Source: Branchiostoma lanceolatum
Taxonomy: Eukaryota > Chordata > Leptocardii > Amphioxiformes > Branchiostomatidae
Reading direction: 5' to 3'
Length of the DNA stretch: 64,000 nucleotides
NCBI RefSeq assembly: GCF_035083965.1
Contig: NC_089740.1
Location: 10,414,596 to 10,478,595, forward strand
Each line of letters opens with the position of its first letter. Positions within the stretch are counted from its first letter, which is position 1. Under the pieces are notes generated by a model. It ran no database searches. It was not told the DNA's origin and worked only from the letters and a program-made list of their open reading frames with translations. Both the position numbers and the translations under genes were made by a program. Positions 19,543 to 64,000 of the stretch are shown piece by piece.

Positions 19543-22500
19543 TCACTGTGTGGCACACTGTACCCCGCCTCTGTGGGGATGTTCATCGTCTTCCTCGTAC
19601 GCGTTTCCTGCGAAACGTTGCCGCTGCTGAGAGGGGTCGATACGGACTAAATCTACCACCTCTGCGTCGTCTGTTTCCAAGACTTCTTCGCGCTCTGTTG
19701 GGAGAACAAAAGTGAAGGTCTTACAACTGCAATTTTCTTAAGTATCACTAGGTGGCTCTATTAATAGGTGACTAAGTGTGTTACTAGGTGGTAGTAAATC
19801 CAAAACTTCTTTACTCTTTGTACTGAGAATGAGTGAAAGTAATGATTATGCTGCTGTTTTAACAAAAATCACTAGGTGGCTCTGTTGCACATTTGGTCAC
19901 CAACTAAGAACTTCATACTGAGTAAACCATCTAGATTATTAGTAAGTTATCATAATATTGGTGGCTTGGACAAATAAAAGGATGGATTCAAAAACTTGCA
20001 GGTAGGTCTAAGGAATCCGTACTAAATTTTGGGCTCCTTTCATGACACAACTCTTACTTGGGGAATCTTAGTTTTATTCTTCATCCAACATAGATATATT
20101 TAACTAGGTGTATCAGAAGTTGTCATATTTTTTTCAATTCTTCATTCAACAAACAAAGAGATAACCATTCTTATACAAACTAAGAACTGAAGGTATATGG
20201 CAAGACAAAAAGAAGAAAATTACTACAACAGGTAATAAAGGATCATCATATTTACCTGGCATCAGTGCTTCTAGCTCGGGGAGTCTTTCCTTTGGCAAGA
20301 AACCGTCTGGGGGGAAGTTGACCACAAACTGGATGATGAGACGACCCTTGTCGAACGGGTTGCGGTACATCGGCATTCCCTCGTTCATGATGCATTTCAC
20401 GTCTCCGTACTTGATGACCTCGCCTGTTTGAACATGAATACATTCGGTAAATTTTGAAGTGTCTAAATCTTTAACATCACACTCACTCACTAACAATACA
20501 CATAGAAATTCAAATACAGGGCTCTCTCTCGAGAAATGTAGAGGGTCTTATGGCGCCTGCACCCATATCCAACGGTCAAAAATAAATAAGAGTTTTAAAC
20601 TATTCAAAAGCCGATCTTGGGGGTGATTTTTGTGTGAAATCTTGGCAGTTCTGGGGCCGCTGTGGCAGGAAAGACTATGTTCTTGTTGAATCAACCTTTG
20701 TAAATCTTGTCTTCATAGACTTATTCACAGTTCACTGATACTGTCTGAAACTCATGACCTTACTATTTTAAGACACCTTATTCAATTGTTTGATTTATTT
20801 TGTATAATGTACCTGGATATCAGCTTTTATCACATTCATATATAATGTATAAGTGAAAGCCAAATTTACCAGGATGAGATGTGATCAGCAGCGTTCTGTT
20901 ATCGAGTGTTTTGATTGGTCGCTGGAATCCGCACAGCGCCTCCACCAGCTCGATCTCTAGCTTCATGAGCAGGTCGCCATGGTTACGGTGGTACACGGGA
21001 TGCTCCTTCTCGTCCAGAACGATGATGATGTCACCTGGCTCCAGACCTGGCTCCTGGTCGCCTTCTCCGTGGAAGGTGATCTTCTGTCCGTCCTTCATAC
21101 CTGAGGAAACATTGGGTTATGAGAGACTCCTAGTGACGGGCAAAGGTACTGCACAATTAAGTTTGTCTACAGGAACATAATGAAAGCTTTATCAAACACG
21201 GTATCAAAAATGTGCTGTTATATTTCCCCTTCTATATATGGAATATAGAAATGGATTTTTTTTTATTCCTTTGTAATCTTACTAACCAAACAATAACCAC
21301 AAAGTATTAGTTATGATAAACGTATTAAAATCTGCTATTTTCTGAACATCATTAGTAGACTTCTGAGAGAGAAATGATTAAAAGAAATTAAAAATGAACA
21401 TAAAACGATTACATTCATTTACCTTCATGGTGGTTTTATTTTGTGGTACATGGTAGAAGAAAAAAGGAGGTATTCCCAACGTTTCAAATTCAAGGTTGAA
21501 ACAATTTTGTAGTACAGTTGTCTTACAATGAAGACATATTCATGGTGTCATGAATTTGCTGTGGAGAGGTCGCCGCATAAAAAAACCACCATGAAAGTTT
21601 CAAGATTTACAGTAAGTAAACTTTAAAATTAGGTAAGAAAGGCCACACCTCAAGCATGTTAAAGAACCTGCTACACTTATCAAATTCGAAAAGAGTAAGG
21701 GTCCTTCCAGGTGTGAGCGGATTAGACCTTACAGTCTGTATATAGGCTACAGAATCTTCAGCAACTTGAAGTTGGTGGCCTCAAAAGAAATAAGAAGAAG
21801 AGGCTGGACTCACCTTTGTCGATGTGCACCTCTAGGATCTTGCGTTCTCGTACGATCTTCCTGCCGGTACAGGTCTTGCAGCGGTCGCGTGGGTTGATGC
21901 GCTCCCCCTGCCCCTGACACTCGTTACACATGGACTGGATCTGCTGCACCATGCCAGGGCCCAGCTGCTGGATACGAACCTGCATACCGGTGCCGCGACA
22001 GTTCGGACAGCTCTCCACCGCGCCCTTCTTCCCACCGCGACCTACGTGTCGTGGAATACCGTAAATACTTGGAAATCTCAACAACAACAACAAACAACAA
22101 CAACAAAGACACATCTCACACAGCGATGGTTATGCAAAATAATGTATTTCCTATGATACAGGTTTACAAAAACAAACTTTTAAATCTTACAAAACGATAT
22201 CATAATAGCTAAAAGTGAACATTTTCACCAAAGAATACCAGTACATCTGCATTAAGCACATGAAAGGTTTACTGATAATAGATTTGCATGCATATGTCAG
22301 GCTTTTCCATACTGTGGACACTAGGAAACTAAAGCTGCATTTACAAAGTGTAAATTGCAATACTGACTATTAAATTCAGGCAGTGTGTTGACAAGCAAAA
22401 TGCATTAATTTTGATATCTTACAATAGATAAGTTACATACAAGACAATCGGTATGCTGCATTACTTGTCATATTGATTTCTATTCCACAAAAAGGCCTAT

Positions 22501-27027: not shown

Positions 27028-29532
27028 GGACAACTCGGCCCATTTCCAACTCGGCCCATCGCAAATCTGGTCAACTCGGCCCATCGCGGTGGTCAACTCG
27101 GCCCATTGCCGAGGTCAACTCGGCCCATCGCCAAATTTCCACAAAATAAAAATAAAAACACCTTCTAAACCACAACCTCATGACTGCAATTTTTAATGTT
27201 TACCCGCCGTGTCATGGGTAGTAACATACATGTACATGTTAAGTAACAATGTCTCCTTGCCTAATTGTTAGACAACTTCGACTTGTTGAGGTTTTTGGAG
27301 CTCCATACCGCTGGTGCTTTTGATAGGTTATCAACATAATTTTCATAGAGACCATGTTTTTTGTCAGAAAACTTCGAACTGTTGACTTAATTTGAGGTTT
27401 TTGGAGACCCATACCACCGTCGCTTATAGGCAATCAACTTGATTCAATATAGAGTCTAACAGACCACGTCTTTTTGTCAGAGAACTTCAAACTGTTGACT
27501 TTAAGGTTTTGGGGCCGAGTTGACTACTCTCATCTCCCAAATAAACATACCCCCCGGAATAAACATACCCCCCGGACAAATCTTCAAAATCTAATAAACG
27601 TACCCCCCGGAATAAACATACCCCCCGGAAATTGACCAAATTTACAGATAAACTGTGTCCATGCTACTTCTGTCCGAGGGAAAGAAGATGATCAGCAGGT
27701 AGCTGTAGGTTCTCTTCATTCATTTATGCCTGTCTGAGGACCATACCTGTAAAGTTTATAAATATTGAACAGCATAACTGAACACATCTTGTTCAAATTA
27801 TAATCTTCCTTGCCACTTCCAAAAAAATAATGTTGAAAAATTGGGCATAGGTTCCCTGCTATGACCCCTAACCGGGGGCCAACGGTGCTTTCAAATTCAA
27901 CAAGTGAAAATATACAGTCATGATGATGAGACTGTACATGCATTTTCTACTTGGAACTTGAAGCAAGTGATCACGGAAAATTGTTGTATAGACTGACATA
28001 TTATCAAAACACTCTTCTCAGTTCACTTGGATGGGCAACACTTTCAAAGTCTACTCTTTTTTTTATAAAAATGTATCAACATTTAGAACATGAACAAAAA
28101 ATTACAATATCCTGAATATATGGTCATCACAGGTAACATTATTACTTTTTTTTTTCTTTCCCAACTTGCCATTTATCTTATATGCATTGCATATATAGAA
28201 ACATAGATTTGTAAACATTACATGCCACAAATTATTGTGTTGTGTCAAGGACATTATCATATAATATCAATGACAATATTCTATAATGTTCTGGTTTGTG
28301 TTGTTGCAATCCAAATAATTTAAAATCCCAAAATCACCTTTGTAGGTAGAAAAAAAACATTCATTTTGAGAAACTAAATTGTCAACAAATTTGTGAGAAA
28401 CCTCAGGCTTGTTACAATGTAGCCAAACCACAGGGTTCTCATGTTACCATCAAAGGTTGAGCTGCAGACAGCAGCGGCGCCGCCAACAGAAAGGGGCGGG
28501 GCTAACAGACTATACACCCATGTTCTTAGAAAGATCGAGCATTCTTTCTGTAGAGGATTGATCTTTTTTAAAGCATTTTTAAGTGATAATAATGGCGACT
28601 AGATTGCATTTCAATTTTATGTATAGACTTTAATATTGAAATTCTTTTTGTTCAAATGCAAAAGACTTTTCTGACAGAGGCAACAAAGTTTTATTTGTAG
28701 ATCAAAAAGATTTCCTTGCCCTTCTTTGAAGTGAGCTCTTCCATTACAAATCTTTCCCACGCACCAAAGTCACTGACGTCGGCCTGCGTTACTGTCACAG
28801 TGGCGATTTTCCAAGCGCTAGATTTTCATGTTTGTGGTAGGATTGAAATGTTTTGATATATTTTGAAAGTAATTTCACAGTTTTATATGCTAAGACACAG
28901 ATTTTTCGTGGTGTTGTTTTTATATTTTCATTTTGGGAAAGACTGTATGTACTAACAAGTATCTCACGTGAGTAGAGAAATGTACATGCGTTAGAATTGT
29001 TGAAACACTGCGCCGCTGGCATGTATTGTTTTCTGATCAGCGTGCTTTGGTTTACGATGTAAACAGAGACTGTCAAAGTTGTTTATATAAAAAGAATTGC
29101 ATTTTAAAACGTCAGTGTGGCGTCTTTTTTTCTCCAAATAACAACGTTGACTTTGTAGTGTCATAGAGATCGACCGATACGTAACGAGTTCCGCCAGGAT
29201 TTCACAAACAAAGGTCGGGTCATACCTGCAGGGAAATCAACGCCGCTTGGCCGAAAAATAGCGAATTATGAGCAAAACTGCCGGGGAAATATGGGCAGGA
29301 AAACCCAGACTTTCAATTTCAATGGGATCCCTGGTTAGCAAAACTCTGATTTTCAAAAAAAAAAAAATAAACGTACTGTCCAAAATAAGAACGTACTGGG
29401 TGGATTTTGAGGCTGAAAAAAATAAACGTACCGGTACGTTTATTTGGGAGATGAGAGTAGGGAGATGGGCCGAGTTGACTAGGGAAATGGGCCGAGTTGA
29501 CTGGGCCGAGTTGGTAATGGGCCGAGTCGTCC
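27028..29532. mobile_element. Outer non-autonomous element with CAACTCGGCCCAT subterminal repeats, interrupted by another element
   Basis: The left end has five copies of a core close to TCAACTCGGCCCAT (27030-27130). The right end has four in the opposite orientation (29463-29532). The outermost ends pair as GGACAACTCGGCCCATTTCC and GGACGACTCGGCCCATTACC. Internally about 110-bp units repeat (27270-27500: AACTTCGA/CAAACTGTTGAC with GAGGTTTTTGGAG). Copy A (27527-29457) is inserted at a TA in its right part. No target duplication was found, so outer limits are tentative. Confidence 0.6.
27527..29457. mobile_element. TA-flanked non-autonomous element, copy A
   Basis: The ends CTCTCATCTCCCAAATAAAC are inverted and flanked by TA. 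The left arm repeats AATAAACATACCCCCCGG four times; the right arm repeats AATAAACGTACCGG-like units. The 1.93-kb interior has no long frame. Copy B at 31095-32694 shares both arms and interior stretches in reverse orientation. TA duplication is as for Tc1/mariner-type insertion. Confidence 0.75.
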
Positions 29533-29628: not shown

Positions 29629-32600
29629 ATGATCGAGACCGTGCAAGTACGCCAGCGGGGAGCGTATGACTTCGGCACGTACTACGACAACCTGTGTGCC
29701 CTGCAGAATACCGTCCCACTGCCCGCCGTCAAAGGTAACAGTTAGTTTTGACTTTCCAAAACAACTTGGGGTCTAATTTGAGTTATTATGAACCACTTTG
29801 TTTGGAAGAAAAGTCATAAACAAATTTTTGTCAGAAAAAAAGGGGCAATTGATCTTCTCCCTATACATGTGTTGCCTTAGGTACGGTATTGCTTAGATAT
29901 GGAAGAATACTAAGTGTATTAACTCACTTACTACTCTAGGGAACAGACCTCAAAAACAAAGGAATGGGAAACCTAAAAACTCCAAAGAAACTCAGAGAGC
30001 GCTAGCTACGGCAGCTTGCAGGAAAAAAGACACAGTGGAAAGAAATGAAGAAAGCCTTAATGCAGCCAGAGGTTGATTCTACAACTACCTGAGCTGCAGA
30101 ATACAGTAGATCATCATCATCATGGAAGAATCATATTTTCAAGTTGGCAATGTGACACAGTGTTTAAAGCATTTTGAGGAACATTAACATCTCTAGTTGA
30201 TACATCCACACTTTGTCTCTCCCAGCCCACCTCAGTGATGGAGTACTCGACCTTAACTCTGACCGGCTACGGGGGCCAGACTTTGTCCCCCTCCTCAACA
30301 CCCTGCGAATCAACAAGAGTCTTTCATTTGTGGCTTTCAGAAGCTACTATCAACCCTTACCCTCAGGTAAGCTCCTCTATCTGTCTTTGGTCAATTAGTT
30401 TTACTGTTACTAGCATGTGGAAACCAGCCACTCTTTTGCATGAAATAACTTGTATGTGCACACAAACCAACAGACACAATGAGTACAAAGCCTCTATACA
30501 TAAAGGTAAAAAAAAGCAGATATGTCATAAATCAAACACTTGTTTATGTTTATTTGGACTAACAATGATTTTCCCACCCCAGATACTCCTGTGGGTAAGA
30601 GACATCTCTTTAAGAAGAGGGCTCCACCTGTGAGGACTAAAGACATGACGTTAAGGATCTGTAAGGCCTTGAGGGAGTGTCTTACTGTGACCCCCTCCTT
30701 AACCTGTGTGGAGGTCACTAACCTCCCTCTGAGGAACAGGGACTTAGAGAACCTCGCCAAGGTAGGGGAAGGTTTAGGAGTTGTTTGCTGCATACTAATT
30801 ATTAGGCCTTAGAGCTGTAACATCAGGACAATACAAAAAGTCAATTTTCTGATCGTTTCTGGTGTTCAACGTGGCCAACAGGAAATTGTCATCTTTCTTT
30901 GCATTCTTGTTGATTTCAGGAAATCAATGTGCCTCGTTTGGTCGTTTGTACTGATTCTGCATTAACCATTTAATGTCAGAAATGTGAAATAATATCAATA
31001 GTGCAAAGATGTTGAAAACTTTATGTTGTAAATATCGATGACATGAAAAGTTGTAGCCAGAATATTTCAAATTTTGGAGCCAAATTACTACTTACTCTCA
31101 CCTCTCAAATAAACGTACCGGTACGTTTATTTTTTTTCGCCTATAGTTCCACCCGGTACGTTCTTATTCTAGACGGTACGTTTATTATTTTTTGAAAAAT
31201 TGAGGCTTTGCAAACCAGGAATCCCTCTAAAATCGTAAGTTGAGGTTTATCTGCCCATATTTCCCCGGTATTTTTGCTCGTAATTCGCTATTTTCCGGCC
31301 TACCGGCGTTGATTTTCTCGCCGCTTTGACGGCCTTGTGAAAAGTATCCTGGCGGCACTCGTAACATATCGGTCGATATCGCTATGAAGCTACAAAGTAA
31401 ACCGGAAAAAAAGACGCGACATTGACATTAAAAATACAATTTTCATATAAATAACTTTGATAGTCTCTGTTTATATCATAAACCAAAGCACGCTGATCAA
31501 AAACGTGTGAAGTAGGGTGCTCGCCTGCACGGGGAATAAGAATATTTCCTGACCACTATATCCGTAGTATCGGCAGCGCGGCGGAAGAATTATTTGTTCG
31601 CAGAAGACATGTAACACGTTAAAACAACAATCATAACTTAACTTCCCTTGTAATATGTGTTTTGAGGCCACAAAATCTCTAAAACGGCAGAAATATGTCC
31701 GATATGATTCGGTAAACAACAGCGCGAAATCGCGAAACATGGCCGCCACTCTCAGGCATGGCGACAGTAAAACTAGCAGCATATTGCGTAGTGCGGATAC
31801 CGATCTTTAAAATGATACCGTAAACGCATGGAAATATTATATTTTTTGGGCAACGATAGACACACAAGGCCATATTTATTTTCAGAGGGTTCATTTTTTT
31901 TAAATTATCGTAAGATTTTCCCAATTTAGGCGGTTCATCGCGGGTTTCTAGTGTCAACACGTAATGGGTAACTTCTTAGTATGTGCGGTCTGTGACGTTG
32001 AGCTACTTTTACAGTCGATCTCTGTTCAATATTGTGGGATTTACCGCGGGAACTCGAAATCCGAGCGTCTCACTTTGTTTTCAACGCTATGGAGCAAAAG
32101 TTTATAGACATATTTCTTTTGTGGAAGGACTGTGTTCATATTTGTGTTTTTTTGTGGTTGATGTCTTTAGAAAATATGATCAGGTACATTTAACTTAAGT
32201 ACTCTGATGATTTTTGTTATATGTCACTGATTGTCAGTCATAATAAAATGATATAACAATTTTCTTTGATCACTTGCTTCAAGTTCCAAGTAGAAAAAGC
32301 ATGTATCATGTACATTTTCACTTGTTGAATTTGAAAGCACCGTGGCCCCCGGTTAGGGGTCATAGCGGGGAACCTATGCCCAATTTTTCAATATTACTAT
32401 CATATTTTACGAAGAGGCGAGGAAGATCATCATGATTTGAACAAGCTATGGACAGTTATTCTGTTCAATATCTATATACTTAATAGGTATGGCATAATTG
32501 ACTAAATATAAGTTACCTACCTGCTTATTATCTTATTTCCCTCTGACAGTGACACAGTTTACCTAGCCTCGACTGTCGATTTTTGAAATTTTCCGGGGGG

Positions 32601-35600
32601 TACTTTTATTCCAGGGGGTACTTATATTACATTTTGAAGATTTGTCCGGGGGATACTTCTATTCCAGGGGGTACTTCTATTTGAGAGGTTAGAGTAGTGG
32701 CACTAAATAACACAGTGAAAATGTGTAGTATAACAGTTACTACTGTACATGTACATGTTGTATTACATGGTATATTCCTTTTCATTCAGGGTATTGCAAA
32801 GAACACCACAATGACCCACCTATCATTGGAGTACTGCAGAATCGGTGATGATGGTTTAGAAGGTGAGCATACACACTGTAACGTTGTGAATGTTACAGAC
32901 CTTGATCAGAAGGTATTTTGTGCATGTCGCGTCACCTAACATGTACACAACTTTCGGACAACAATGTTCCAGAGGTAGGTTGTTTGCTTGCAACTGGCTG
33001 CAGCTTGGTGACATACCAAAGACCTCAATGATGGTGGAGACTGCTTAGCACTTTAAGACTCTTTGGCCCAAGGGCTATAGAAATGGAGATGAGCACACAA
33101 ATGGAGTTGAATATCTAAACCTAAAGCAGCTTAGAAAATATCTCTCTGTGAACTGTTGGTTGATATGAACACATGATTTTGCGTCTGTTTCAGTTGTTTG
33201 CCAGGCTGTAAAGAATTCCGCCACTATCACGTCTGTCAATTTCACTGGCTGCGGACTGACAGCGCGCGGTGCCGACACTCTAGCCAAGATTATCAAGGTA
33301 CATGTACCATAAAATTTTTGTGGGACTATGAATCAGATAAATGATAAGCCAAAGCACATTACTTAGCTTTTACTACTAGCTGTTGTACACATCTAAATTT
33401 TTGTTCCAAGGCGTTGTTAACAGATTTTGATTTATCAAAATGTATCATTTACTTTTATAAAGCATCAAGCGATGAAGAGACATAATGAGGCATGGCAGGA
33501 CAGCTTGAGATACAGGCGACCAGACTTAGACCGGATGACGGGTATCAGGCGCATCACCATGAACTCTAACCCCATGATGGATGACCTGGGAGCCATGGCA
33601 CTTGCAGAGGCGCTGAAAGATGACCTCTGGGTCAAAGGTAAGGATGGTTTTGACCATTCAAGGCTTTGTCATGGCTAGCGTACAGTTGGATCAATAAATA
33701 GTACGCTATCTGAACTGGTATGAATGCCATTTAGTATTTTTTTTAAAGAATTTTTAGTTGCTACTTGTCAACTAGTGCTTGCACAACTGTGTTGCCCAAT
33801 GGCTAAAGAAAAATAGATGCACACATCCCCCATACATCAAAAGGTGTGGAGAGGACTGTAATTCTTTTTCTAATTTTACTGTAGCCTTGGACCTGCAGCA
33901 ATGTGGCATCTCAACAGAGGGCGCTAAAGCACTGTACGACGTCCTGAGGACCAACACCACCATTGTAGTGCTGGACCTGAGGAGAAATCCTCTCATAGGT
34001 AAGCAATGGGGAAAACGGCGACAGAAATTTTGGTTCCCTCAATAATTGTATGAAAGTTGCTTCCAAGGAAACAAAAAGTAGAATGACTTGTTAAGGGCTA
34101 CAAGTCCGGCTGAACATCTCATCTAAGAAGATGTCCCTAACCGAAGCTAGGTACTTATTTTCACCCAAGGTCATAACATTGGAGCCTACTAGGGATTTGA
34201 ACCCAAATCCTTTACATTCTTAGTCACCAGCCCTAAGCACAAGACTAGCCTGTATTTACATAAGCTCTCAGCCCGAGGTTACTGACCCCCACTTGGGTAA
34301 GGCGGTTACGGGACTGGCTGGACACTAGGAGCGCGATTCGTCAGGCTAAGCCCAAGACCACCTTGTCACTTTGTGTTTTTTCTGTTTCCCCTAGATCGTA
34401 GCATGATGCAGTCCATAATGGAGCAGGTGATGATCAACACAGGAGGACAGGATACGGAGTACAGGTGGATCAAAGTAGAGAGCCCGCGGGATCCTGGGAA
34501 GGCGTCGTACCGCCCACCGCCGCGGCGCCGTAGGAGACGCACCGTTAGCAGCGGGAGGAAGACGTTCACCGTAGAGCCACAGGGGCGCAAGAGGTACGGT
34601 TTTAGAACAAGATGGCTGACCAATGATGTCACAAATCATCATGGCGGTGCCCATGGGCTGCAGGATAAAACAAAATAAGATTTTGCAATTATTTCTAGTG
34701 GCTTACTTTAGTTTGCAGTTACCATGCCAAGAAAGCTAAATGTAATACCCAATACCTAAAAAGTTACATACATGTATTTAAATCTAACTAAAGGTACATA
34801 GACACCCATATTTTCAATCTCAAAATAACCAAAAGTCAGAATGATTCAAACCAACAAAACAAAAAATTTTGACCTGCAGTTATGTGTTTTTCCTAAATAG
34901 AATTATTGCTCCACAGTTGCATTATCATGATACAATGTACTTGTATGACAAACCATACAATAGTTCTACTAAATAATTTAGATTCTTTTGTAGTGTAGGA
35001 TAAGATATCTTTGGCGGAATTTCTAATGTCCAGGCACTTTTTTTAATGTACTGTCCTATAGTTTTGCTGTAAGGATTATTGCATTATATAACCATGTACT
35101 ACATATTTTTGTCTCAGGTCCAGATCGGTTGGTTCTGTGGAAGAAGAGAGCCAACCTTACATGCCAGACAACACCCAGCCTGGCACCCAGGGGTTTGTAC
35201 CATGGAGGACCGCTGCCAGACTAGGACGGTACAGGTCAGTGGTACTACAGCACATGGGTACCTCCATTGGTGCCACAGTAAAATCCAATCTGTCTATTAA
35301 TAAACCACACTTAAGGGACTAGAAGAACATAACCACAGTAGACAGGTGGTCACTCTAGACAGGGCTCTTCATGCTGGAATCAATGGGAAATGTAGTTATA
35401 AAATGGTATAAAGGACAACAAACATTTGGCACAGTGGCAAGGTGATCCTTATGTAGAGGTGGTCATCAATACTACAGGTAGAGGTGGTCGCTGTAGTATA
35501 TCATGTTTGCCTGAATATCAATAGTCAGATCGTTGTTTTGCGAAGTTGGTCACTTGTATGTAGGTTTGGCTGTATTTACAAGTATGTATTAATATTTTCC

Positions 35601-39776: not shown

Positions 39777-39991
39777 TCATTGGTCCTTCTTGGTGTTTCC
39801 AGTCAGCTGATCCCAGTCCGGCCAATAGCGTTCCTTCATACGGATGCAGTAGGCCTGTAGGTTGGGACAGTCCTCGGTAACAATCCTGTGCATGTAGGAG
39901 TCCGGAATGGTCCACAGGATTTGTGCCAAGAGGCCAAAGACCGCAGCGTCAGCCTCGGTTGGTTCGTCTCCCATCAGAAACGGCTTAGTAC
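39777..39991 (-). pseudogene. Orphan last exon of a FAXC-like (failed axon connections) gene
   Basis: After an acceptor (TACTTTCAG) the minus strand encodes TKPFLMGDEPTEADAAVFG through ERYWPDWDQ and a stop, the GST-C-like end of the FAXC family. It is very close at DNA level to the last exon at 61340-61557. A minus-strand AATAAA follows at 39697-39702. No upstream exons were found on this strand before the plus-strand gene at 41.5 kb. It is most likely a displaced duplicate exon, or less likely the end of a gene with a very long intron. Confidence 0.7.
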
Positions 39992-39999
39992 CTGAAAGT

Positions 40000-41514
40000 A
40001 TTTATAGAAAATATTATCTCTTCAGACTTTGCTACAGACCTTGCCAACAAGCTGGTTCACAGTTTGAACTGCGCATGTTGGAGGTCAGGTAAAAACCAAC
40101 TAACTTGGAAAGTCACTTCCTTTTTCCAACCCCTACCAACTATCACAAATAAAGACACATTCATGACTTCTTGATTTATGCTATAGCTAGCTGTTCACAA
40201 AAAGACAGACAGACGGACATACACATGCACCGGAAAACAACCTTCTTGGCGTAGGTAATAAGCCAAATAACTTGAATAATTTGCTAGTAAGAGGAGTTTG
40301 GTCAACAGGTCTCTACACCAATGACCAACCAAGCCATATATCTACTTGTTGCCAATTTCTACCATTTTTCTGTCCGCCAAAAGACGTGGGCGCCACTAAC
40401 TAAGTATGATATAATGTTACAATCTTTTCTGTCGACATGTCATAATCTTTATTCTTACCCCTCCCCCTCCACTCAACCTAAATGGTTAAAAGGAATTTTG
40501 CTATGGCCAACAGTGCAAATAATGGCGTCACTGACTAGGACAACTTTTAAGTATACGGTTATAATGTTCGAAGCTTTTCTCTCGACATCAGCTTTTAAAC
40601 AGCACCAGAATAAAACGGTTACGTCGGAACAGATGGAGGTAATTCCGACATGTACATGTAGGTGTGCCTTAGAACAGCGGACGCCACTAAGTACACGAGG
40701 TTACGTAGTGACATCTTCCAAAGTAGGTTGAACTAGCCTCAAAATCAGGCTTCTTGCTGCTTTGAACGCTCTAGATCTTTTGAAGATGCTTTAGTCTCAA
40801 CAGCCAGCGTTATATCATTTGTGCGATTATATTGTGTACTCTTATTATTGCCGATTGTTTCTTCTAAATTCAAAGTGCCTGGAACAATAGCAGCGTATAT
40901 CGCATAAATATTGCATAACCGTTTGCCACAATGCATTCCTTCGACGCCTGCTTTAGAGGCTAACAGTACTGCTCATTTAACAAGTGTCAGTACTGGATAT
41001 TAACAGAGGCGTAGACCGTATCTTGTAATGATCGTGAAGCCCAAGAATTGTGTAGCACAGTACGTTATGATGACCAAAAATTTCCATTATTTTGTATATG
41101 ATAAACACAAAGCATCAAAAGAAGTGTTTTTGCCTAAATCCTTCAGCAAAATTAGACATGTTTTTCCTACAGGTGATATCATCCATCTATACAAATATTC
41201 TCACCGTGATTTTCGGCTCAGTGGAAATAGGCACAAATTTTCCCACGTTGTCGCCAGAGAACCTGCTCTCCCTACCTTTCCGACATGCGTCTGTCACGCA
41301 CATATCACGCACTAGGTGGGAAAATGTTCAAATTTAGAAACCTATAGACCAATCAGAGTTTGCCACATCATCTATCTACCTGCGTGTCAGGCCAGATATC
41401 ACCGTTTGACCGCCGCTGGAAGATCATTCTGCGAGCAGAGACGACCGTCATCGGACTGAGACAACTTGGTCAACTTTGGGGAGATCTATCTACCAGACAC
41501 AGCGACAAACAGCA
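40000..41514. other. Intergenic interval
   Basis: No supported gene. Open frames at 40321-40731 and 41028-41337 show no recognisable domain. The last few hundred bases probably hold the promoter and 5' UTR of the gene starting at 41515. Confidence 0.5.
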
Positions 41515-44500
41515 ATGGGTAATACTCAACAAGTAGCCAAGTCGCCAACTGAGGTGAGATATCAGCTATATTATGTATCATTTCTACTAGTATGTAAACG
41601 TCCCGTAGCCTTTTTGAAGCCGTAGGGGCAGTGGGTTTTTATCCACTGTGTCTTAGGGGCACCGTGCATTGGCAGTCGGAGCCCATCCTTTCTCTTTCCA
41701 CTGTCTTTTACGTATCTCCCAAACCGAAATCAGATACCCATCTTTACACCTGGGTGGACTGAGGAAACTCGTGCAAAGTGCCTTTCCAAGGCCAAAGACA
41801 CAATGTCTAGCCGGGAATGCCAGGAATCGAACCCTCGACCTCTCGATCTTGGGTCCGCTAGCCTAGTCACTCAGCCATTCGACGCCCCAAAATTCTATGA
41901 ATTAACTCAAAATGAGTTGATAAAACTTCTGAAGAAAAGTAAAAGAAAATATCCATCACAAGTAGTCAATCAAGTGTATCATAATCTGACTTTATTTCAT
42001 TTTATTTCATTTTTTTTAACTTTTGCAGGTATCTATTTGCTAAAGCCTTGGATATATCCATATCTTAGTAAACGACACTTTCAAGTAACATTGTCTTCTC
42101 TTTATCTTTTAGAACGCGCAGGACATGACTGTCAAAAAGGGACCGGGGGTAAGTGCTTCACCTTTTTAGCCCTGATAATAACGTCTGGCCCCGATCTGCT
42201 ACTCTTGTATTCAACAGTAGTTGTTCTAACGTTATAATCTAACGGTAACCAACCCGACAAAACAACCTGCGAACGATAGTTTAAAAATATATAACGAGCA
42301 ATAACGCATGTTTATATAATGAATGAAGACCTTTATTGCACATTTCTGCCACATTTGGCTAAGTACAGGTCACAACAAAACAAAATAACAAGTACAGTTA
42401 ACGGATACAAAAGAATATGACTATCATTAGATAAATTCTACTTCTCCTCGCTTTTCGGTTATAGTAGATATAAAAGAACAGACGTGTTTTTCAATGGGAG
42501 GTTTGTCTAGTCGCATTAGGAATATGAATTTTTGTACAGTACTTAAATGTGTGAAGTAGGGAAATAGGTTTTCTACAAGCTTATACAGTTCATTTCTTTC
42601 TTTGGTATATGATCCGGCACATTCTACCACAAAATGACATTCGTCTTCTATTCTATTCAAAGTACAATGTTTACATAATCGTTGTTCTAGAGCAGTGCGG
42701 GTATGTCTTCCCGTTTCAATATGTAGTTTGTGGCAGCTGATTCTTAGTCTTGTGACTGCATTCCTGTCCCTCATATTTGCATTACTTAGATATTTTTCTT
42801 CATTATATATAGTTTTAAATAGTCTATATGATCTTAACTTATTTTTGGCAGCCCCACCTTTGTTGTCGTTATGTATTTCTTTTAGAAACGTTTGGAAGTA
42901 AATGTCTTTTATCCGCTGGCCAATGGAACTAACAATTTGTAACGTATTTGTATTATATGAAATTGGAAGATGCCATAAGAAAGCAAACCCGCTCTCTTCT
43001 AAAGACTTACGTATTCCTGTCGCCCAACATTTAACACCAGATTTGTCTAGATCTAACTGACAACAGAAAGCATCTGCTTGAAAACTGTCGGCTGGCACAT
43101 TCTGGCGAAGTCCAAACAGAAAGCATCTGCTTGAAAACTGTCGGCTGGCACATTCTGGCGAAGTCTAAGGATGTATCCTATTGTTTAGCGACTGAAAAGC
43201 TAACTAGAACCAAGGAGGATAAAATAAGATCTTATTTCAACCTCCTTGCTAGAACTATTCAAAATGTGTCTTATGTTTGTTTTGTTTATTTGAAAGATCT
43301 CCATTAGTGACAGTACATGATACATACTTCACTGATTTTCTTATGTTGTTGAAGTTTTCCATTAAAACCATATCGAAAAACTGTTAGGAAAACAAGTTGG
43401 ATTAGATTTCTTTCCGATGTGTACTTACCCTGGGAACCATCCTTCTTGGTCCCGGCCCGGCAGAGCCTCTGTTCGGCAGCCCATGCAGTTCTTCCCGAGG
43501 ACCTATATTAGCACTCCCAGGATTATCAGTAGTAGGCTATACTCCCTGATGGTTCCCAGGGTAATGTGTCCTAAAAAGAAAAGAAAGACTTAGACTTGTA
43601 GACAATAATCTTAACTTCTTAAACGGTAGCTGAAAAATGTCGCTAAATTGTGTTTGTTGTTTCATGCACCTGATTTGGTCTGTGCTGTGTTACAGCTGTT
43701 CAGTGCAGCAGCTGCTGCAGCTGTAGGCATGGCGACGGTGAAAGCTGCCCCCATGGGAGCCAAGGCCTGTACCTACAGCTCACCTGATGAGACCAGGTAT
43801 GTTATACGTGTGTATGTGTGTATGTATGTAAATGTATATGTGTGTGACTGTCGTGTGTGTGTGTGCGTGTGTATGCGTGTGTGTGTGTGACCGTGTGACG
43901 TGTGTGTTGGTGTGTGTGTGTGTGTGTGCATGTATGTGTGTGTGTGAGTGTGCGTGTGTGTGTGTGTATTGTATTGAGTAAAAAGAAAGTTCCTCCCTGG
44001 TTTTATTCATCAAATGATGGCGGTTCTTCACTCTGTGTTTGATTAGCATTGACGCGGGCTACAAGACGTACCTGCAAGTCTGTTCAACCTGTCACAGGTA
44101 ACTGACTTTTCAGTTTTGTTCTTTTCTCTTCAAGTTAAAACATTACTAGAGCGTTAAGAAATTAGGTCACATTATACATAATCACAGTAGATAGTATGTG
44201 TATCCAAATCATATAAAACTGACAGAGAACGCTAGCACACCGTCCTATATAGGTTATAGTGAATCAGGATGTAATACATGTCTTGTGAAGACTACGATGA
44301 TATACATATATACTGTTCAGATATTGTCAGGGAAAATGTTCATGGCAACTATCGGTGGGTATTTACTGTAACTTACGGAAAATGCTGAGAATGAGAAGTC
44401 CAAGGCCATTTTCAAGAATCTCTGCAGACCGCGGTCAACAAGTGGTTCAAAAATGTGGTTAGAATACTAGTATAGACTGGATGACTTGTTGTAGGATGTC

Positions 44501-44587
44501 TTTACTAGGGGGCGCAACTGAATCTGTTTTGACACGGATCATATTCATTTTCTTTCATCTCTCCACAGCATGAACATGACTGACTGA
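41515..44587 (+). CDS. Small predicted protein with a cytochrome c1-like CXXCH motif
   Basis: Five small exons join in phase with good sites: 41515-41553, 42113-42148, 43696-43796, 44047-44097, 44569-44587 (TGA), giving 81 residues. The N-terminus MGNTQQVAKSPTE fits an N-myristoylation pattern (Gly2). A hydrophobic Ala-rich stretch (LFSAAAAAAVGMATVKAA) follows. The end, YKTYLQVCSTCHSMNMTD, resembles the haem-attachment site of cytochrome c1 (YKQVCASCHSM in vertebrates). The rest of cytochrome c1, including its distal ligand Met region and C-terminal anchor, is absent. Polyadenylation signal at 45130. Function unknown: it may be a truncated derivative or an unrelated CXXCH protein. The intron between exons 2 and 3 contains a LINE fragment and a MITE. 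A model built only from splice signals, so less certain than its neighbours. Confidence 0.6.
41665..41885 (-). repeat. tRNA-derived SINE, antisense
   Basis: The complement begins with a tRNA-like head (box A-like TGGCTGAGTGACTAGG, box B-like GGGTTCGATTCC) and a body with CTTGGAAAGGCACTTTG. It is in the first intron of the 41.5-kb gene. Confidence 0.7.
42320..43098 (-). mobile_element. 5'-truncated non-LTR retrotransposon, C-terminal tail
   Basis: A 223-codon minus-strand frame (43098-42427) encodes the post-RT tail of a non-LTR element: TRLRISCHKLHIETGRH, then CKHC and DECHFVVECAGSY, which look like a Cys/His cluster. A minus-strand AATAAA and a CATT-rich end follow at about 42320-42335. The RT core is missing. 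At its upstream edge a 53-bp direct duplication occurs (43062-43114, 43115-43167). Confidence 0.8.
43428..43561. mobile_element. Short TA-flanked MITE
   Basis: The 134-bp unit begins CCCTGGGAACCATC and ends with its complement GATGGTTCCCAGGG, with TA on both sides. No coding capacity. Confidence 0.65.
43808..43972. repeat. (GT)n microsatellite
   Basis: About 165 bp of interrupted TG/GTGTGC repeats starting some 11 bases after the donor at 43797 of the small CXXCH gene. Confidence 0.9.
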
Positions 44588-45129: not shown

Positions 45130-45135
45130 AATAAA
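45130..45135 (+). terminator. Polyadenylation signal of the CXXCH gene
   Basis: AATAAA 543 bases after the stop at 44587; no other plus-strand gene intervenes. Confidence 0.45.
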
Positions 45136-56915: not shown

Positions 56916-57769
56916 AAGAATAGCATGTGGTTGATATGTATATACACGTGCAGATACATCTTAGTCAGCATTTCAGATGTAAAATGGCTACAGATACAAC
57001 ACATGTACAGGGCATACACCCAGTTGTTTTTAAAGCTATTCTATGGTAAAACACCACTTTGTAATATCAAGTGAGCACTTTTTACATATAAGGACAGAAT
57101 TCTTTATTTTGTAAATATGTGTACTGTCATACAGTCCGAGCCCATTGCAGTAATTTTTGTTCAAGACAAGGAAATGTTTATACATATTAGGGAGAAGAGT
57201 ATGGAACATTCACATAGTACTTTTGTTTTCTATTTTTGTTTGAAAAAGCATCTCCATCTATATGATAAGATGGTTATTAATATGACTGGATATAGTCATT
57301 CATAACTGGTGTGGAAGAGTAATTTAATTGTAGACTAAGGTTGTATATTTCCTGGACAATGTATGATAATGTTAATCTATGGCTATGTACAAAGCAGTGA
57401 CTTTCTGTTAGCTAGAATGCTATTATTCTTAGCCATTATACAGCTCTGCTAGCTGCAATTTCATTCTGATTGACTAAAGTTATGGTAACAGCATTTGGCC
57501 TTAGCCATTGTGTTATACATGCACGTAATAACAAGTTTGTTCACATCTTATTGTGTGCTCTTTATTTCTACAGAGCATTTTATGTTTTATATTACATCAT
57601 CATATCTTTAGATACATTCCATGTAATTGAATGTTAATAAGTGGTTGATGTCTTGATAAAGAGTACACTAAAATGAAGAAAAAAATGCAGGTCTGTCATT
57701 CCTTTTCTCAGTTCTATAGTAGTGCTGTAAATCTTGATATGCAAAAAGATAATCTACAAGACTTTTCAT
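56916..57769. other. Intergenic spacer
   Basis: AT-rich, no supported gene between ROPN1L and the FAXC-like cluster. Confidence 0.5.
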
Positions 57770-57852
57770 AAACAGCCTCATTACCCTACACATTGGGTAC
57801 CTGCCTGTGGCACTGGCTGCAAATACACCTGATATTATTATTATTATTATTG
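57770..57852 (+). repeat. SINE 3' end with (ATT)n tail
   Basis: CAGCCTCATTACCCTACACA, CTGCCTGTGGCACTGGCTGC and a (TTA)n run are the inverse of 15888-15975. The tRNA head is missing. Confidence 0.65.
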
Positions 57853-58077
57853 TATATTCCCAAGCCGCACTGGCGTCATTGACAACTGCCACACTGTATG
57901 TTAGAGCGCCCTCCGGCGTAACACACCAGTATTGCAGAGCAAACGATATCACAGTAACTTACCATTCAAGAAAAACCCGGGGGGCCTGCATGACATATGT
58001 GCGTGTCAAATTGATCAGTTTTTACGTACTTCCAAGTCCCTGCCCTCGACCAGAGAGAATCTTACTAGCTTGCAAAA

Positions 58078-61000
58078 ATGTCCGGATGTCTTCAAAGTCT
58101 CTGGGAATCACTTGGAACCTTGTTTCAGACAGTTGTGCAGTTGCTGACGGACCCCGCCCAGCTCTCCTGTGTTGACCTTGCCGTTCTCGGTGTTTCTGCC
58201 GCCTGTGTGACTGTGGCGGTACTGTGGACATGTTCTGGTGAAGACTTTAGGACCCAGAAGGTCAAGGTTAGGGCTGACTTTACACCAGGTAAGGCAATTG
58301 TAAACTGGCAGTTGTTATTTCATACGTTTATAGGTGATTTACACGTACATTGCATTACTGTGTCGATGACCTGAATAACGCCAGCTAAATGTCAACGCCC
58401 CTGAATAAACTAATCTCCAAGCAGATGTAAGGATCAAACTCAGTCTCAGTGTTTACTCCTCACCTGTTTTGCAACATTTCGTTCATGTTTTTAGTATTGC
58501 ACTCAGGGGGTGAAGCGTTGAAATGTGCAGAACTAGAAAGATTTACTCAATATCACAAGTTGCGAAGAAACTTGCGTGAAACACAGACTGAGCCGGCTAG
58601 CCGGACTGACTTACATCTGCTTGCAATATTAGAGTAAACGCTTGATGGCATAAGGAAAGCATCACGAGATCATTGTAATGATTTGCAGTAGGTTCATCAT
58701 CATCATCATTGCAGTAGGTTCACTGTAGGCTGTACACAGATAAAAGTATTTTCGCGATGCCTCAGGGACGAAACTGAACATGTTCTACCACGATCAACTG
58801 CAGAAAAGTCTATGAATTACTCATTATCATGCCTTCACTAGGGAAATTCTAGTTCTAGGCTCTCATTGTCACAGAGTCCCATGTGACACCTACATGCAAA
58901 CAAAAACGGATTCTCATCAAAGAGATCTAGATTGCAGACGCGAAACTATGATATCTTTTATTTGAGTTCGCTCAGGGAGTTTTGTATATGTTTGGATGCT
59001 TGTTCCCAGGAAAAGTGTACTACCACGGGATACCGCCAGTCCGGGCGATTCCGTGTTTGTCTCCGTTTGGATTGAAGCTTGAGACGTACCTGCGGATGGC
59101 TGGTATTCCATACGAACCCTCTACTGAGATGGCCATGGGACCTAAGGTATTATATATGTACAAGACATTTAATTTGCAAGATGGGAGAGAAACCATTTTT
59201 GATACTCATTTTTCTTTCAAGATTTTACTTCTTTGGGATACATTTTCTGGATGTTATTCGAAGGACGTCTTGTTGAAATCTTTAAAAGTCTTAATTTCTT
59301 CGCTTACAAAAAACAGGGGAAACTCCCTTGGATCGAGTACAACGGACGAGCCATTGGCGACTCTAACCTCATTATTGAGTTCCTGAACAAGGAGAAGGGC
59401 GTGGATCTGAACCGGTCACTCCGTGATGCTGACCGGGCCGTCAGTCGGGCCTTCGTTAAGATGCTGGAGGAGAACACTTATTGGTTTGTTTGTCTGATTT
59501 TTGTTTGTAAATTTAAGAATGGTAAATTGAAAGCTGTCGTTTTAACAAAAACACTTCAGGAAAACTGACTCACTCACTTCACTCACGTTGCTGTGAAGTC
59601 GGTATCGTCCAGCAACCAAAGATACATTGTATTCTCACATGCACTTCAAATGTTGCTGGTCGTAGAGTCAATTCCATGTCACCGAGAGGGTTTTCAGATG
59701 ATATTGCTAATAAGTTTGAACAATTTTAGAGAAAAGACTATTTCAGTCAAAATAATTCCAGACCGTTCAAACAATTAGAAATGAAAGTTTGAACATGTTT
59801 GAACTCATCTCTATATTTTGGAAATATTATGAAAGTATTTGCACAAATATCTCTTTATTTAGAAAAGTTTTCAAACATCTGTGTGATTGTTCTACTGTTG
59901 GAACATGTTCCAACATTTTGCATCATTCTCAAAATGGTAGATTTCAGTTATTGCCCCCATAAAAGTAGGTGCTAATCACGCTCTATTGTCTGCCTCTGTA
60001 TATTTTTAGATTTCACGTCTGGACACTGGCAACTCTTTTGTCTATGCATGGCACTTAGGCCTAATCCCCTATACTTTGAAGGGATGTGTGAATTGCCCTG
60101 TTCCCAGCCCACTGACCCAGTTATATCATATTTGTAGAATGTTGGAACATGTTCAAATAAATGATCAATCTATGTTGCAACAGTTTAGAAACTAATACAA
60201 ATAATGTGTTCAATGTTGGAAATTTGTTTAACCTGTTGGAACACAGCAGAAAATATTTATAACACCAAATAAATGTTGGAAATTGTTCTTAACAGTTACT
60301 TATCTCACATAGATTGTTACAAAGGTTTTGTAAATGTTAGAACAAAAGGCAACAAACACCCTCTTGGTAATGTGGAATTGACTCTATATAAATTTATATT
60401 CCAAATGATTTTTTAAAAATCATTGTGAATTCCTTTGCACGATACATATCAGGGCATCACCCCCTTGGCGTATCGTTTGCAAATCTTGACCTTCAAGTTT
60501 GTGAAGCCAAAGTACCGCGTAGTATAAGACGATATGCAGACTGCCCAGCGTTTGTTTCTCAGTCCATGTTCTTTTCTAATCGCACAGGGGAGGCGCCAAG
60601 TGTAAAATGATCGATAACCAGGACAAGATACAGGAGATGTGGCAGGTGTCCTGGTTCATCTTCTTCTTTTACCTGAAGCCTGCAGTAAAGATCATTAAGA
60701 AGAACATGTGGGCCCACGGTATCGGTCGTCACTCCGACGAGGAGTTGGAAGCCATTGTCGAGAAAGATCTCAAAGCTCTCTCTGACTTTCTGGGTATGAT
60801 CCTCTGGCCTTTCTCATATCAACATATGTCCTACGATAAATAATTGCTAAAAGCTCCAACTCAAGTAGTTGAGACCCTTTTCAAGTTTTGTTTTTTGGGT
60901 GGGCCGACTATTCCTTTGTTGCAGCTATCACGGGATGAATCACGAGGAGCTAATACAGTTGGTGGGGATGAATCGCAAGTGTCGGGACATTTGTTGTACT

Positions 61001-61557
61001 CAGATTTTGATGTCGTGGAGTTTTAAAGCAGACTGTGACAAAACCAAGGATCTAAGACAGCCTTTTCCGTATTACGCAGCTCGCACTCTTGTACGACACA
61101 TGCATAACTAGTATCTCAAGAATGCCTTCAGTCCAGTACGGTTGTACGACGAAAGTGTCCGGGCCTTTAGATCACCCCAATACGATAGTTATTGCCCAGG
61201 CGCGGCCATGGGCTATAAAGTTGTGGTCCACTGATTGTGTGGTGTTTTTTTCTTTTTGCAACAGCAACCCCGATACCGTGAAATTGGATATGAAGTTGTA
61301 ATTTGTATGATCGGACTATTTTTTGTACAAATTATTTAGGTTCTAAGCCGTTTTTGATGGGAGACGAACCAACCGAGGCTGACGCTGCGGTCTTTGGTTT
61401 CCTGGCACAAATCCTGTGGACCATGCCGGGCACCTACATGTACAGGATTGCTACCGAGGACTATCCCAACCTACAGGCCTACTGCATCCGTATGAAGGAA
61501 CGCTATTGGCCAGACTGGGACCAGCTATCTGGAACTCTGACCAAAATGGACCAATGA
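58078..61557 (+). CDS. FAXC-like protein 1 (failed axon connections family, GST-fold)
   Basis: Five exons in phase: 58078-58288, 59010-59146, 59317-59483, 60588-60793, 61340-61557 (TGA), giving 312 residues. After a hydrophobic N-terminal segment (DLAVLGVSAACVTVAVLW), a thioredoxin-like N domain (CLSPFGLKLETYLRMAGIPY, KLPWIEYNGRAIGDSNLII) and a GST-C-like domain (AHGIGRHSDEELEAIVEKDL, LMGDEPTEADAAVFGFLAQI, ERYWPDW) match FAXC and insect fax. Family members are membrane-linked GST-fold proteins with roles in axon development in flies; enzyme activity is not established. The start of exon 4 (TGTAAAATGATC region) is the least certain junction. It is followed in tandem by a close paralogue. Introns contain a TA-flanked MITE (intron 3). 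Confidence 0.88.
59665..60384. mobile_element. TA-flanked MITE with recurring GTTGGAACATGTTC palindromes
   Basis: Ends GAGTCAATTCCATGTCACC and its near-complement TGGTAATGTGGAATTGACTC, flanked by TA. The interior repeats motifs close to GTTGGAACATGTTCAAA at about 59787, 59897, 60132 and 60236. 720 bp, no coding capacity, inside FAXC-like 1 intron 3. Confidence 0.75.
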
Positions 61558-62150: not shown

Positions 62151-63584
62151 ATGTCGGGACTTCTTCAGAGTCTTGGTGTCCCGTTTCAGGCGGTAAAGAG
62201 TTCAGTTCTGCAGTTGTTGACTGACCCCGCCCAGCTCTCCTGTGTTGACCTTGTCGTTCTCGGTGTTTCTGCCGTCTGTGTGACTGTGGCGGTACAGTGG
62301 ACATGTTCTGGTGAAGACTTTAGGACCCAGAAAGTCAAGGTTAGGGCTGACTTTACACCAGGTGAGTTGTCATTTAATAGGTACGTATATCTTGTGGGAC
62401 TTGCGTTACCAACTTGTTTGTACGCGTTACTGGTCCAAATGCCCTCGTAAAAAATGCCCGAGGGCGAGGGCACTCATGCACGCGCACGTAATGCATTGTG
62501 TACAGCAAATATGCACAGACCGCGGCATCTAACGTTACGCGTTGTAAACAGTATGAAATTTGTCTACGCAGTCGGCTCCTTCATGCAAAACATTTCTTAA
62601 TACATTGAACGATATATAAACCTGTACCGTTGTCAGCTCTGAAGGTTTCAAGACCAGGTATGCCTGTTCAAACGTTCAGGTATGGGAAATCCGATCCGAA
62701 GCTTTCTGGCGACGCCTTGGGGACGGACCATATAAAGAAGTAACGTACGCAGTTGAGTTGCGGGATGTCCCTGTAGCTCAATTGGTAGCGGCTTTGCAGT
62801 TGAGCCTCCTGTTTCCAATTAGTTGGGTCCGGGAGACCCCGGATCGAATCCCGGGAAGGGTATCCTTGTCGGAGCTGCACCGTCTTTCGAAAGAGACGAA
62901 AAATGGGGGTCCCGTGTTCGAGGAGGTGCCTCGAGTGCGTTACAACAACCTCATTACTCACATAGGTACCTACTGACTGAAATAATACAACCTGGTGAAT
63001 AATATTCGCGGATCCCTCTTATGCAACATTGTATTGACATTGAATTGTATTGACAACATGTGAGGGATTAAGAGAGACTATGCCCTAGTTTGTAAAATCT
63101 CAAATCCGTCCAATTGTATCCCGCATAGATATTAATTCAATGTTGTATTGTTTGAAATTGTTTGTATAGGAAAGGTATACTACCATGCGGCACCACCGGT
63201 CAAGGCCATTCCATGCCTGACTCCGTTTGGAGTGAAACTTGAGACGTACATGCGGATGGCTGATATTCCATACGAACCCTCCCCTCAGACGGTCCATATG
63301 GGGCCGAAGGTGTGTAGGTGCAAACATTTGATTCGAAGTTTTGCGCTCTCTGTCGCCATTTAAAAGATACAATTGTTTGAATGTTAATATTTATCTGCTA
63401 ATATTTGACCACAACAGGGTAAAATCCCATGGATCGAGTACAACGGACGAGCCATTGGTGACTCCAACCTCATTATTGAGTTCCTGAACAAGGAGAAGGG
63501 CGTAGATCTGAACCGGTCACTCCGTGATGCTGACCGGGCCGTCAGTAGGGCCTTCGTTAAGATGCTGGAGGAGAACACTTATTG
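62151..63584 (+). CDS. FAXC-like protein 2, 5' part (cut by window end)
   Basis: Exons 62151-62361, 63170-63309 and 63418-63584 have the same phases and lengths (within 3 bases) as exons 1-3 of the preceding paralogue: hydrophobic N-terminus (LVVLGVSAVCVTVAVQW), IPCLTPFGVKLETYMRMADI and GKIPWIEYNGRAIGDSNLI. The remaining two exons must lie beyond 64000. Exons 1 and 3 are almost identical at DNA level to paralogue 1, exon 2 much less so. No disabling change is visible. Confidence 0.88.
62763..62975 (+). repeat. tRNA-derived SINE with intact head
   Basis: tRNA-like head: box A TAGCTCAATTGGTAG, box B GATCGAATCCC, closing CCCGGGAAGGG. The body has GGGGGTCCCGTGTTCGAGG and the ACCTCATTACTCACATAGGT end, shared with 15.9 and 57.8 kb. 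It lies in FAXC-like 2 intron 1. Not a functional tRNA: the anticodon arm is not regular. Confidence 0.75.
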
Positions 63585-64000
63585 GTACGTACGCAGCAAA
63601 CGTTCAGAAACCCCATACCTACGTGAAATACTTTGAGTTTCTCGTACAAATGTATGTCTCCTGGTAGTTGATTAATTATGCAAATAAGGTTTTGATTAAT
63701 ATTACATGATGAGTCCCTTCCTGTCTCTTAACGCTGATCGTGACCAACTGCGAAAACATATTAAACAAACCAAAATGATACCTACCCACGAATTATTAGC
63801 CTCTTCCAATGACCCCATGACCTGGAATATCTGGCAGCTGTCAGCCAAAGTGGATAAATGACTAATTCTGCCAATTCTGAACTCTAATTGCTGTTACCCC
63901 CGCAAGTTTCACCGGTGAAATATGTTGAGCTGTACCAATATACGGCGTATGCAAATAACTTCGAAAAGACAAACAGACACACCAAAAACAATACCTCCGT

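Follow-up and report, generated by a model that had tools for sequence, protein, structure and literature searches.

A five-exon amphioxus gene whose predicted product resembles cytochrome c1 around the haem-attachment site and ends just past it

Cytochrome c1 (CYC1) carries a bipartite mitochondrial presequence, and its haem-attachment site is followed by the domain of the Met axial ligand and by a C-terminal membrane anchor. A plant cytochrome c1 gene with a shuffled presequence, in which CYC1-type coding exons are joined to foreign 5' exons, is said to retain the whole of cytochrome c1. Gain of the presequence of the plant precursor by exon shuffling is described in a passage of PMC2031878 (citing Long et al. 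1996). The other closely related system consists of synthetic peptides (16-, 20- and 56-mers of cytochrome c and a 20-mer of cytochrome c1) offered as substrates to HCCS (holocytochrome c synthase), the enzyme that attaches haem to cytochromes c and c1. According to excerpts of PMC8112865, HCCS requires ∼16 residues, comprising helix 1 and CXXCH, and such peptides take haem; the products mostly stay on HCCS (14 ± 3% of the cytochrome c 20-mer was released, and the 56-mer was likely unreleased), and in vitro the 16- and 20-mers inhibit the attachment of haem to apocytochrome c that is added afterwards. The cytochrome c1 20-mer also takes haem, with a spectrum that suggests no release (excerpt of PMC11727520, which places the alpha band at 553–558 nm for bound and at 550–552 nm for released product). 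Passages of PMC4158909 indicate that the three-residue spacing of the aromatic residue to CXXCH and the His matter for recognition by HCCS, that attachment stays at a high level when Phe is replaced by Tyr, and that C-terminally truncated cytochromes c are recognised, albeit with a yield below that of a Met-ligand mutant. The authors of the peptide studies, writing on CcsBA, call it unresolved whether CXXCH peptides are true dead-end inhibitors (PMC13170271). Here we describe a gene in a 64,000-nucleotide stretch of Branchiostoma lanceolatum DNA (the window) with a cytochrome c1-type haem site close to the C-terminal end of its predicted product.

Exon structure, codon use and surroundings of the gene

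The first-pass annotation proposed five exons on the forward strand that join in frame, and this model was confirmed: exons 1–4 are followed by GT donors, exons 2–5 are preceded by AG acceptors and the joined frame encodes 81 residues and a TGA stop codon (MGNTQQVAKSPTENAQDMTVKKGPGLFSAAAAAAVGMATVKAAPMGAKACTYSSPDETSIDAGYKTYLQVCSTCHSMNMTD; C-terminal end CSTCHSMNMTD). Exon 1 (41515–41553, + strand) encodes MGNTQQVAKSPTE, starts at an ATG with G at −3 and +4 and has no match to CYC1, and exon 2 (42113–42148, +) encodes NAQDMTVKKGPG. Exon 3 (43696–43796, +) encodes an Ala-rich hydrophobic segment, LFSAAAAAAVGMATV, after which a CYC1-like stretch begins (SSPDET). Exon 4 (44047–44097, +) encodes SIDAGYKTYLQVCSTCH, which corresponds to the CYC1 haem helix and CXXCH (Tyr67, Cys71, Cys74 and His75), and exon 5 (44569–44587, +) supplies (S)MNMTD and the stop codon, so that SMN continues CYC1 and the protein then ends. 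The stop codon lies four residues past CHSM. If intron 4 were retained, the frame would end at CSTCHR, and the product would therefore end at the haem site whether or not this intron is removed. The first of the five AATAAA/ATTAAA signals listed after the stop codon, an AATAAA at 45130–45135 (+), lies 543 bases 3' of it and is followed by a GT-rich stretch; the transcript is likely to end there. A scan for sigma-70 type promoters upstream of the gene was uninformative because the DNA is eukaryotic.

Codon use over all five exons was coding-like: when presumed non-coding DNA was assembled into stop-free sequences as a null set, only 3 of 3,000 assemblies matched or exceeded the score. When the exons were scored separately, null pieces did as well in 190 of 3,000 cases for exon 1, 17 of 3,000 for exon 2, 95 of 3,000 for exon 3 and 366 of 3,000 for exons 4 and 5 together; these scores, taken alone, are weak for exon 1 and for exons 4–5. 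Because four of the eight frames in the codon training set had no Pfam hit, we use the codon result as supporting evidence only. Overall, the gene is probably spliced as drawn, and we consider the chance that it makes a protein to be about even.

The surroundings of the gene contain several other features. Intron 2 holds a 245-codon open frame on the opposite strand (42430–43164, −), which had no Pfam hit at E 0.01 and which resembles the C-terminal end of proteins of non-LTR retrotransposons; a perfect 51-base duplication (43062–43112 and 43115–43165) is located at this frame. Recent duplications with 89–96% identity were found at 39777–40014 and 61318–61557, at 59312–59485 and 63413–63586, and at 58130–58290 and 62203–62363. 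The first pair consists of copies, in opposite orientation, of a GST C-terminal domain that resembles the one in FAXC proteins (GST_C_6, E 1.1e-17 for 39777–40001). Long inverted repeats with 78–79% identity (27523–27989 with 32251–32698, and 29028–29459 with 31093–31504) are nested around ∼30 kb. Elsewhere in the window, pieces of an HNOBA-type (haem NO binding associated) protein at 1331–1978 (+) fall just under the Pfam cut-off, and pieces of a DnaJ protein are encoded at 20149–22129 (−), with the central domain at E 2.3e-14 and the C-terminal domain under its cut-off.

Resemblance to cytochrome c1

The CXXCH motif by itself provides no evidence for a haem protein, because as DNA it is not rare in the window: the two strands together have eight CXXCH-coding sites where 5.55 were expected, and eight or more were present in 15 of 100 shuffles. 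An identical CXXCH-coding stretch is also contained in both copies of a 90-base repeat (15891–15980 and 57769–57857; 97.8% identity, opposite orientation), a reminder that repeats can give rise to CXXCH. However, the resemblance of the 81-residue protein to CYC1 goes past the haem motif. In a Pfam search, the protein matched Cytochrom_C1 (PF02167) with an E-value of 6e-5 and 23.2 bits, a narrow pass of the 22.8-bit cut-off; the match covers protein residues 53–79 and only profile positions 8–34 of 219, and the other Pfam families listed, Cytochrome_CBB3 and Ponericin, were both under their cut-offs. A PDB search gave 39 rows at E-values up to 10, and all 14 rows with E < 0.001 were cytochrome c1 chains, which are close relatives of one another and not independent observations. 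One of these chains, 1bcc_D, is labelled only as ubiquinol cytochrome c oxidoreductase and was counted as c1 on the basis of its match to human CYC1 (E 2.4e-159). In the alignment with the best chain, 9h8t_D (E 1.8e-5), YLQVCSTCHSMN is paired with YKQVCSSCHSMN, which places the CXXCH haem site in a CYC1 context.

Consistent with these searches, SSPDETSIDAGYKTYLQVCSTCHSMN (SSPDET..CHSMN) shares 15 of its 26 residues with human CYC1 and 17 with 9h8t_D, and the CYC1-like match, SSPDET|SIDAGYKTYLQVCSTCH|SMN, covers at least 26 residues and spans two splice joins. The score of the local alignment to human CYC1 (84) was reached by none of 20,000 shuffles (maximum 56), nor by any of 20,000 shuffles in which CSTCH was held fixed (maximum 64). 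These shuffle controls and the Pfam and PDB E-values leave next to no probability for a fortuitous CXXCH without a gene, even though CXXCH-coding sites show no clear enrichment in the window. The protein thus looks homologous to CYC1, and the gene is very probably derived from it. The similarity comprises the SSxDxTSIxxGxxxYxQVCxxCHSM stretch, with the haem-attachment motif and the helix that would precede it. It is accompanied by differences: the Arg-Arg of the CYC1 SIRRG is Asp-Ala in the 81-residue protein, and several other CYC1 residues are changed, whereas Tyr67, Cys71, Cys74 and His75 are kept.

The protein departs from CYC1 on both sides of this stretch. The ∼200 residues that lie beyond the haem site in cytochrome c1 (325 residues in the human chain) are missing, and with them the domain of the Met ligand, the C-terminal anchor and all remaining parts of the fold; because the Met-ligand domain and the anchor are absent, the protein cannot work as cytochrome c1. 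On the other side, exons 1 and 2 gained no homology support in a comparison with CYC1, as 734 of 5,000 shuffles were equally good. The N-terminus, in contrast to that of CYC1, is not Arg-rich; its first 25 residues, whose net charge is +1, do not resemble a presequence for import into the matrix. With regard to the CYC1 presequence, a hydrophobic segment is present (15 residues, mean hydropathy 1.84), the net charge before it is +1 and the Ala-rich part matches no better than shuffled sequence (2990 of 5,000). The N-terminal myristoylation site that had been proposed is not supported, since Gly2 does not satisfy PROSITE PS00008, in which Gln6 is disallowed at the fifth pattern position. Overall, the first-pass annotation is supported in describing a short gene that has the haem site of cytochrome c1 but not the rest of that protein; its suggestion that the site is a mimic is replaced by homology to CYC1 over the two splice joins. 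A search for relatives in viral contigs returned 86 pattern-matching stretches, none of which was confirmed by tblastn.

Splice joins and the 3' end of the gene

We ranked the other GT and AG sites in the window by how well the sequence that they delimit continues CYC1, with human CYC1 and 9h8t_D as references; the comparison with 9h8t_D is favourable by choice, as it is the best PDB match. The donor of exon 3 (43796) ranked first of 2669 open GT sites over seven residues with both references. Over 10 residues, its rank among 2278 sites was first with 9h8t_D and fourth with human CYC1; when the comparison was confined to the 212 sites within 5 kb, it came first with both references. The acceptor of exon 5 (44568) ranked first of 3859 AG sites over the three residues SMN when compared with 9h8t_D, and 13th of 3859 when compared with human CYC1 (SMD), with 17 sites equal or better. 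Its rank dropped over longer stretches, to 10 (9h8t_D) and 38 (human) of 3859 over five residues and to 71 and 239, respectively, over eight, which is what a terminating exon should show. A different acceptor at 46099, which opens a frame reading SIDFVMG and a stop codon, exceeded 44568 over five residues with both references and over eight residues with the human reference only; it sits 3' of the poly(A) signal (45130), and its frame also ends at once. The exon-3 donor is therefore strongly supported, and the exon-5 acceptor is supported with respect to one form of CYC1 only.

To what extent the remainder of CYC1 lies elsewhere in the window was addressed by comparing human CYC1 with the whole window. 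The best match was exon 4 (26.6 bits, E 0.057), and all other matches were at 23.1 bits or less. As a detection control, pieces of CYC1 were planted at 58% and 70% expected identity and scored against background under an overlap rule. Pieces of 30 or 45 residues were found in 39, 40, 40 and 40 of 40 cases (159/160), and it is thus unlikely that all remaining CYC1 exons were missed; pieces of 17 residues were found in 25 of 40 and 39 of 40 cases, and a lone short exon could escape. With a stricter position filter, the numbers were 34, 30, 32 and 31 of 40 for the 30- or 45-residue pieces (127/160) and 22 and 23 of 40 for the 17-residue pieces. The results of the search and its control, together with the poly(A) signal, led us to reject a continuation into downstream CYC1 exons, and the claim that the gene does not join downstream CYC1 sequence stands to the extent that such a join is now unlikely.

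The same results bear on whether the model is wrong at its ends, in which case the true transcript would combine exons 3 and 4 with different first or last exons. Homology gives no support to exons 1 and 2 or to most of exon 5, translation could begin at Met37 in exon 3 to give a 45-residue form, retention of intron 4 would alter the end and acceptor 46099 fits CYC1 better over five residues. However, the SMN continuation at acceptor 44568 was the best of all 3859 sites against 9h8t_D, no further CYC1 exon was detected in the window with a control that recovered nearly all longer planted pieces, and the poly(A) signal follows; we consider misdrawn ends quite improbable. The planted-piece control and acceptor 46099 had opposite effects on the odds, both of them small.

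The main rival explanation is a decaying, unprocessed CYC1 fragment, i.e. a functionless partial duplicate in which a short frame is still unbroken. Only ∼56 codons of exons 3–5 must stay open under this explanation, which a neutral piece could do for some time; several CYC1 residues are altered, and other recent duplications are present in the window. Conversely, all splice borders are intact with the 5' exons in frame, the codon use of the five exons is coding-like, a poly(A) signal is in place and the four residues Tyr67, Cys71, Cys74 and His75 are kept where other positions differ. Such decay is a serious possibility, to which we give clearly less than even weight.

A proposed partial CYC1 duplicate as a putative HCCS substrate

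The 81-residue protein contains the features of an HCCS substrate, namely CXXCH with its His and an aromatic residue, Tyr67, separated by three residues from Cys71 (Tyr67-Leu-Gln-Val-Cys71); the helix upstream of CXXCH is assumed from homology. In these features it resembles the synthetic HCCS peptides as they are described in the published excerpts, which give a helix, CXXCH and an aromatic residue separated by three residues from the first Cys. It differs from them in that it is encoded by a genome rather than man-made, is ∼50 residues longer and has a hydrophobic segment. Given that the HCCS determinants are kept, covalent haem would be a reasonable prediction if the protein reaches HCCS, and poor release would follow. 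We consider it rather unlikely that haem is in fact attached to the protein, and improbable that the protein slows HCCS.

A real protein could also use its Cys/His site without haem, as an intermembrane-space or membrane-anchored peptide whose cysteines serve zinc, a disulfide or a CYC1 partner. Three cysteines (50, 71 and 74) together with the 15-residue hydrophobic segment would suit such a role, as would the lack of a clear presequence. The retention of the reported HCCS determinants beyond the letters of CXXCH argues against it, and a haem-free product seems improbable to us.

We tentatively favour, at slightly below an even chance, a partial duplicate of CYC1 with a new N-terminus that has kept the HCCS determinants and lost the fold needed for release, and which would be a micro-cytochrome or a brake on HCCS. 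The homology across two introns suggests that an intron-bearing CYC1 was partly duplicated, rather than that a retrocopy was made. The copy would have acquired new exons at its 5' end, and nothing of CYC1 beyond the haem-attachment site would remain in it. If the gene is transcribed and its product imported into the intermembrane space, HCCS would attach haem to it, and the haem-loaded product would be released poorly, because release needs folding. The product would then be either a micro-cytochrome that leaves HCCS slowly or a substrate that holds HCCS back. The more specific proposal, that the product of this CYC1 fragment is a natural dead-end substrate, which takes haem, is not released for want of a fold and throttles the maturation of cytochromes c and c1, is speculative and has in our view little likelihood. 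A truncated or partially duplicated CYC1 gene of such kind was not found in the open-access literature searched.

If expressed, the gene would yield a naturally occurring animal protein that terminates immediately past the cytochrome c1 haem site, and with it a direct test of whether HCCS is under cellular control by truncated cytochrome substrates. Should it prove to encode a dead-end HCCS substrate, the synthetic peptide inhibitors would have a counterpart in nature.
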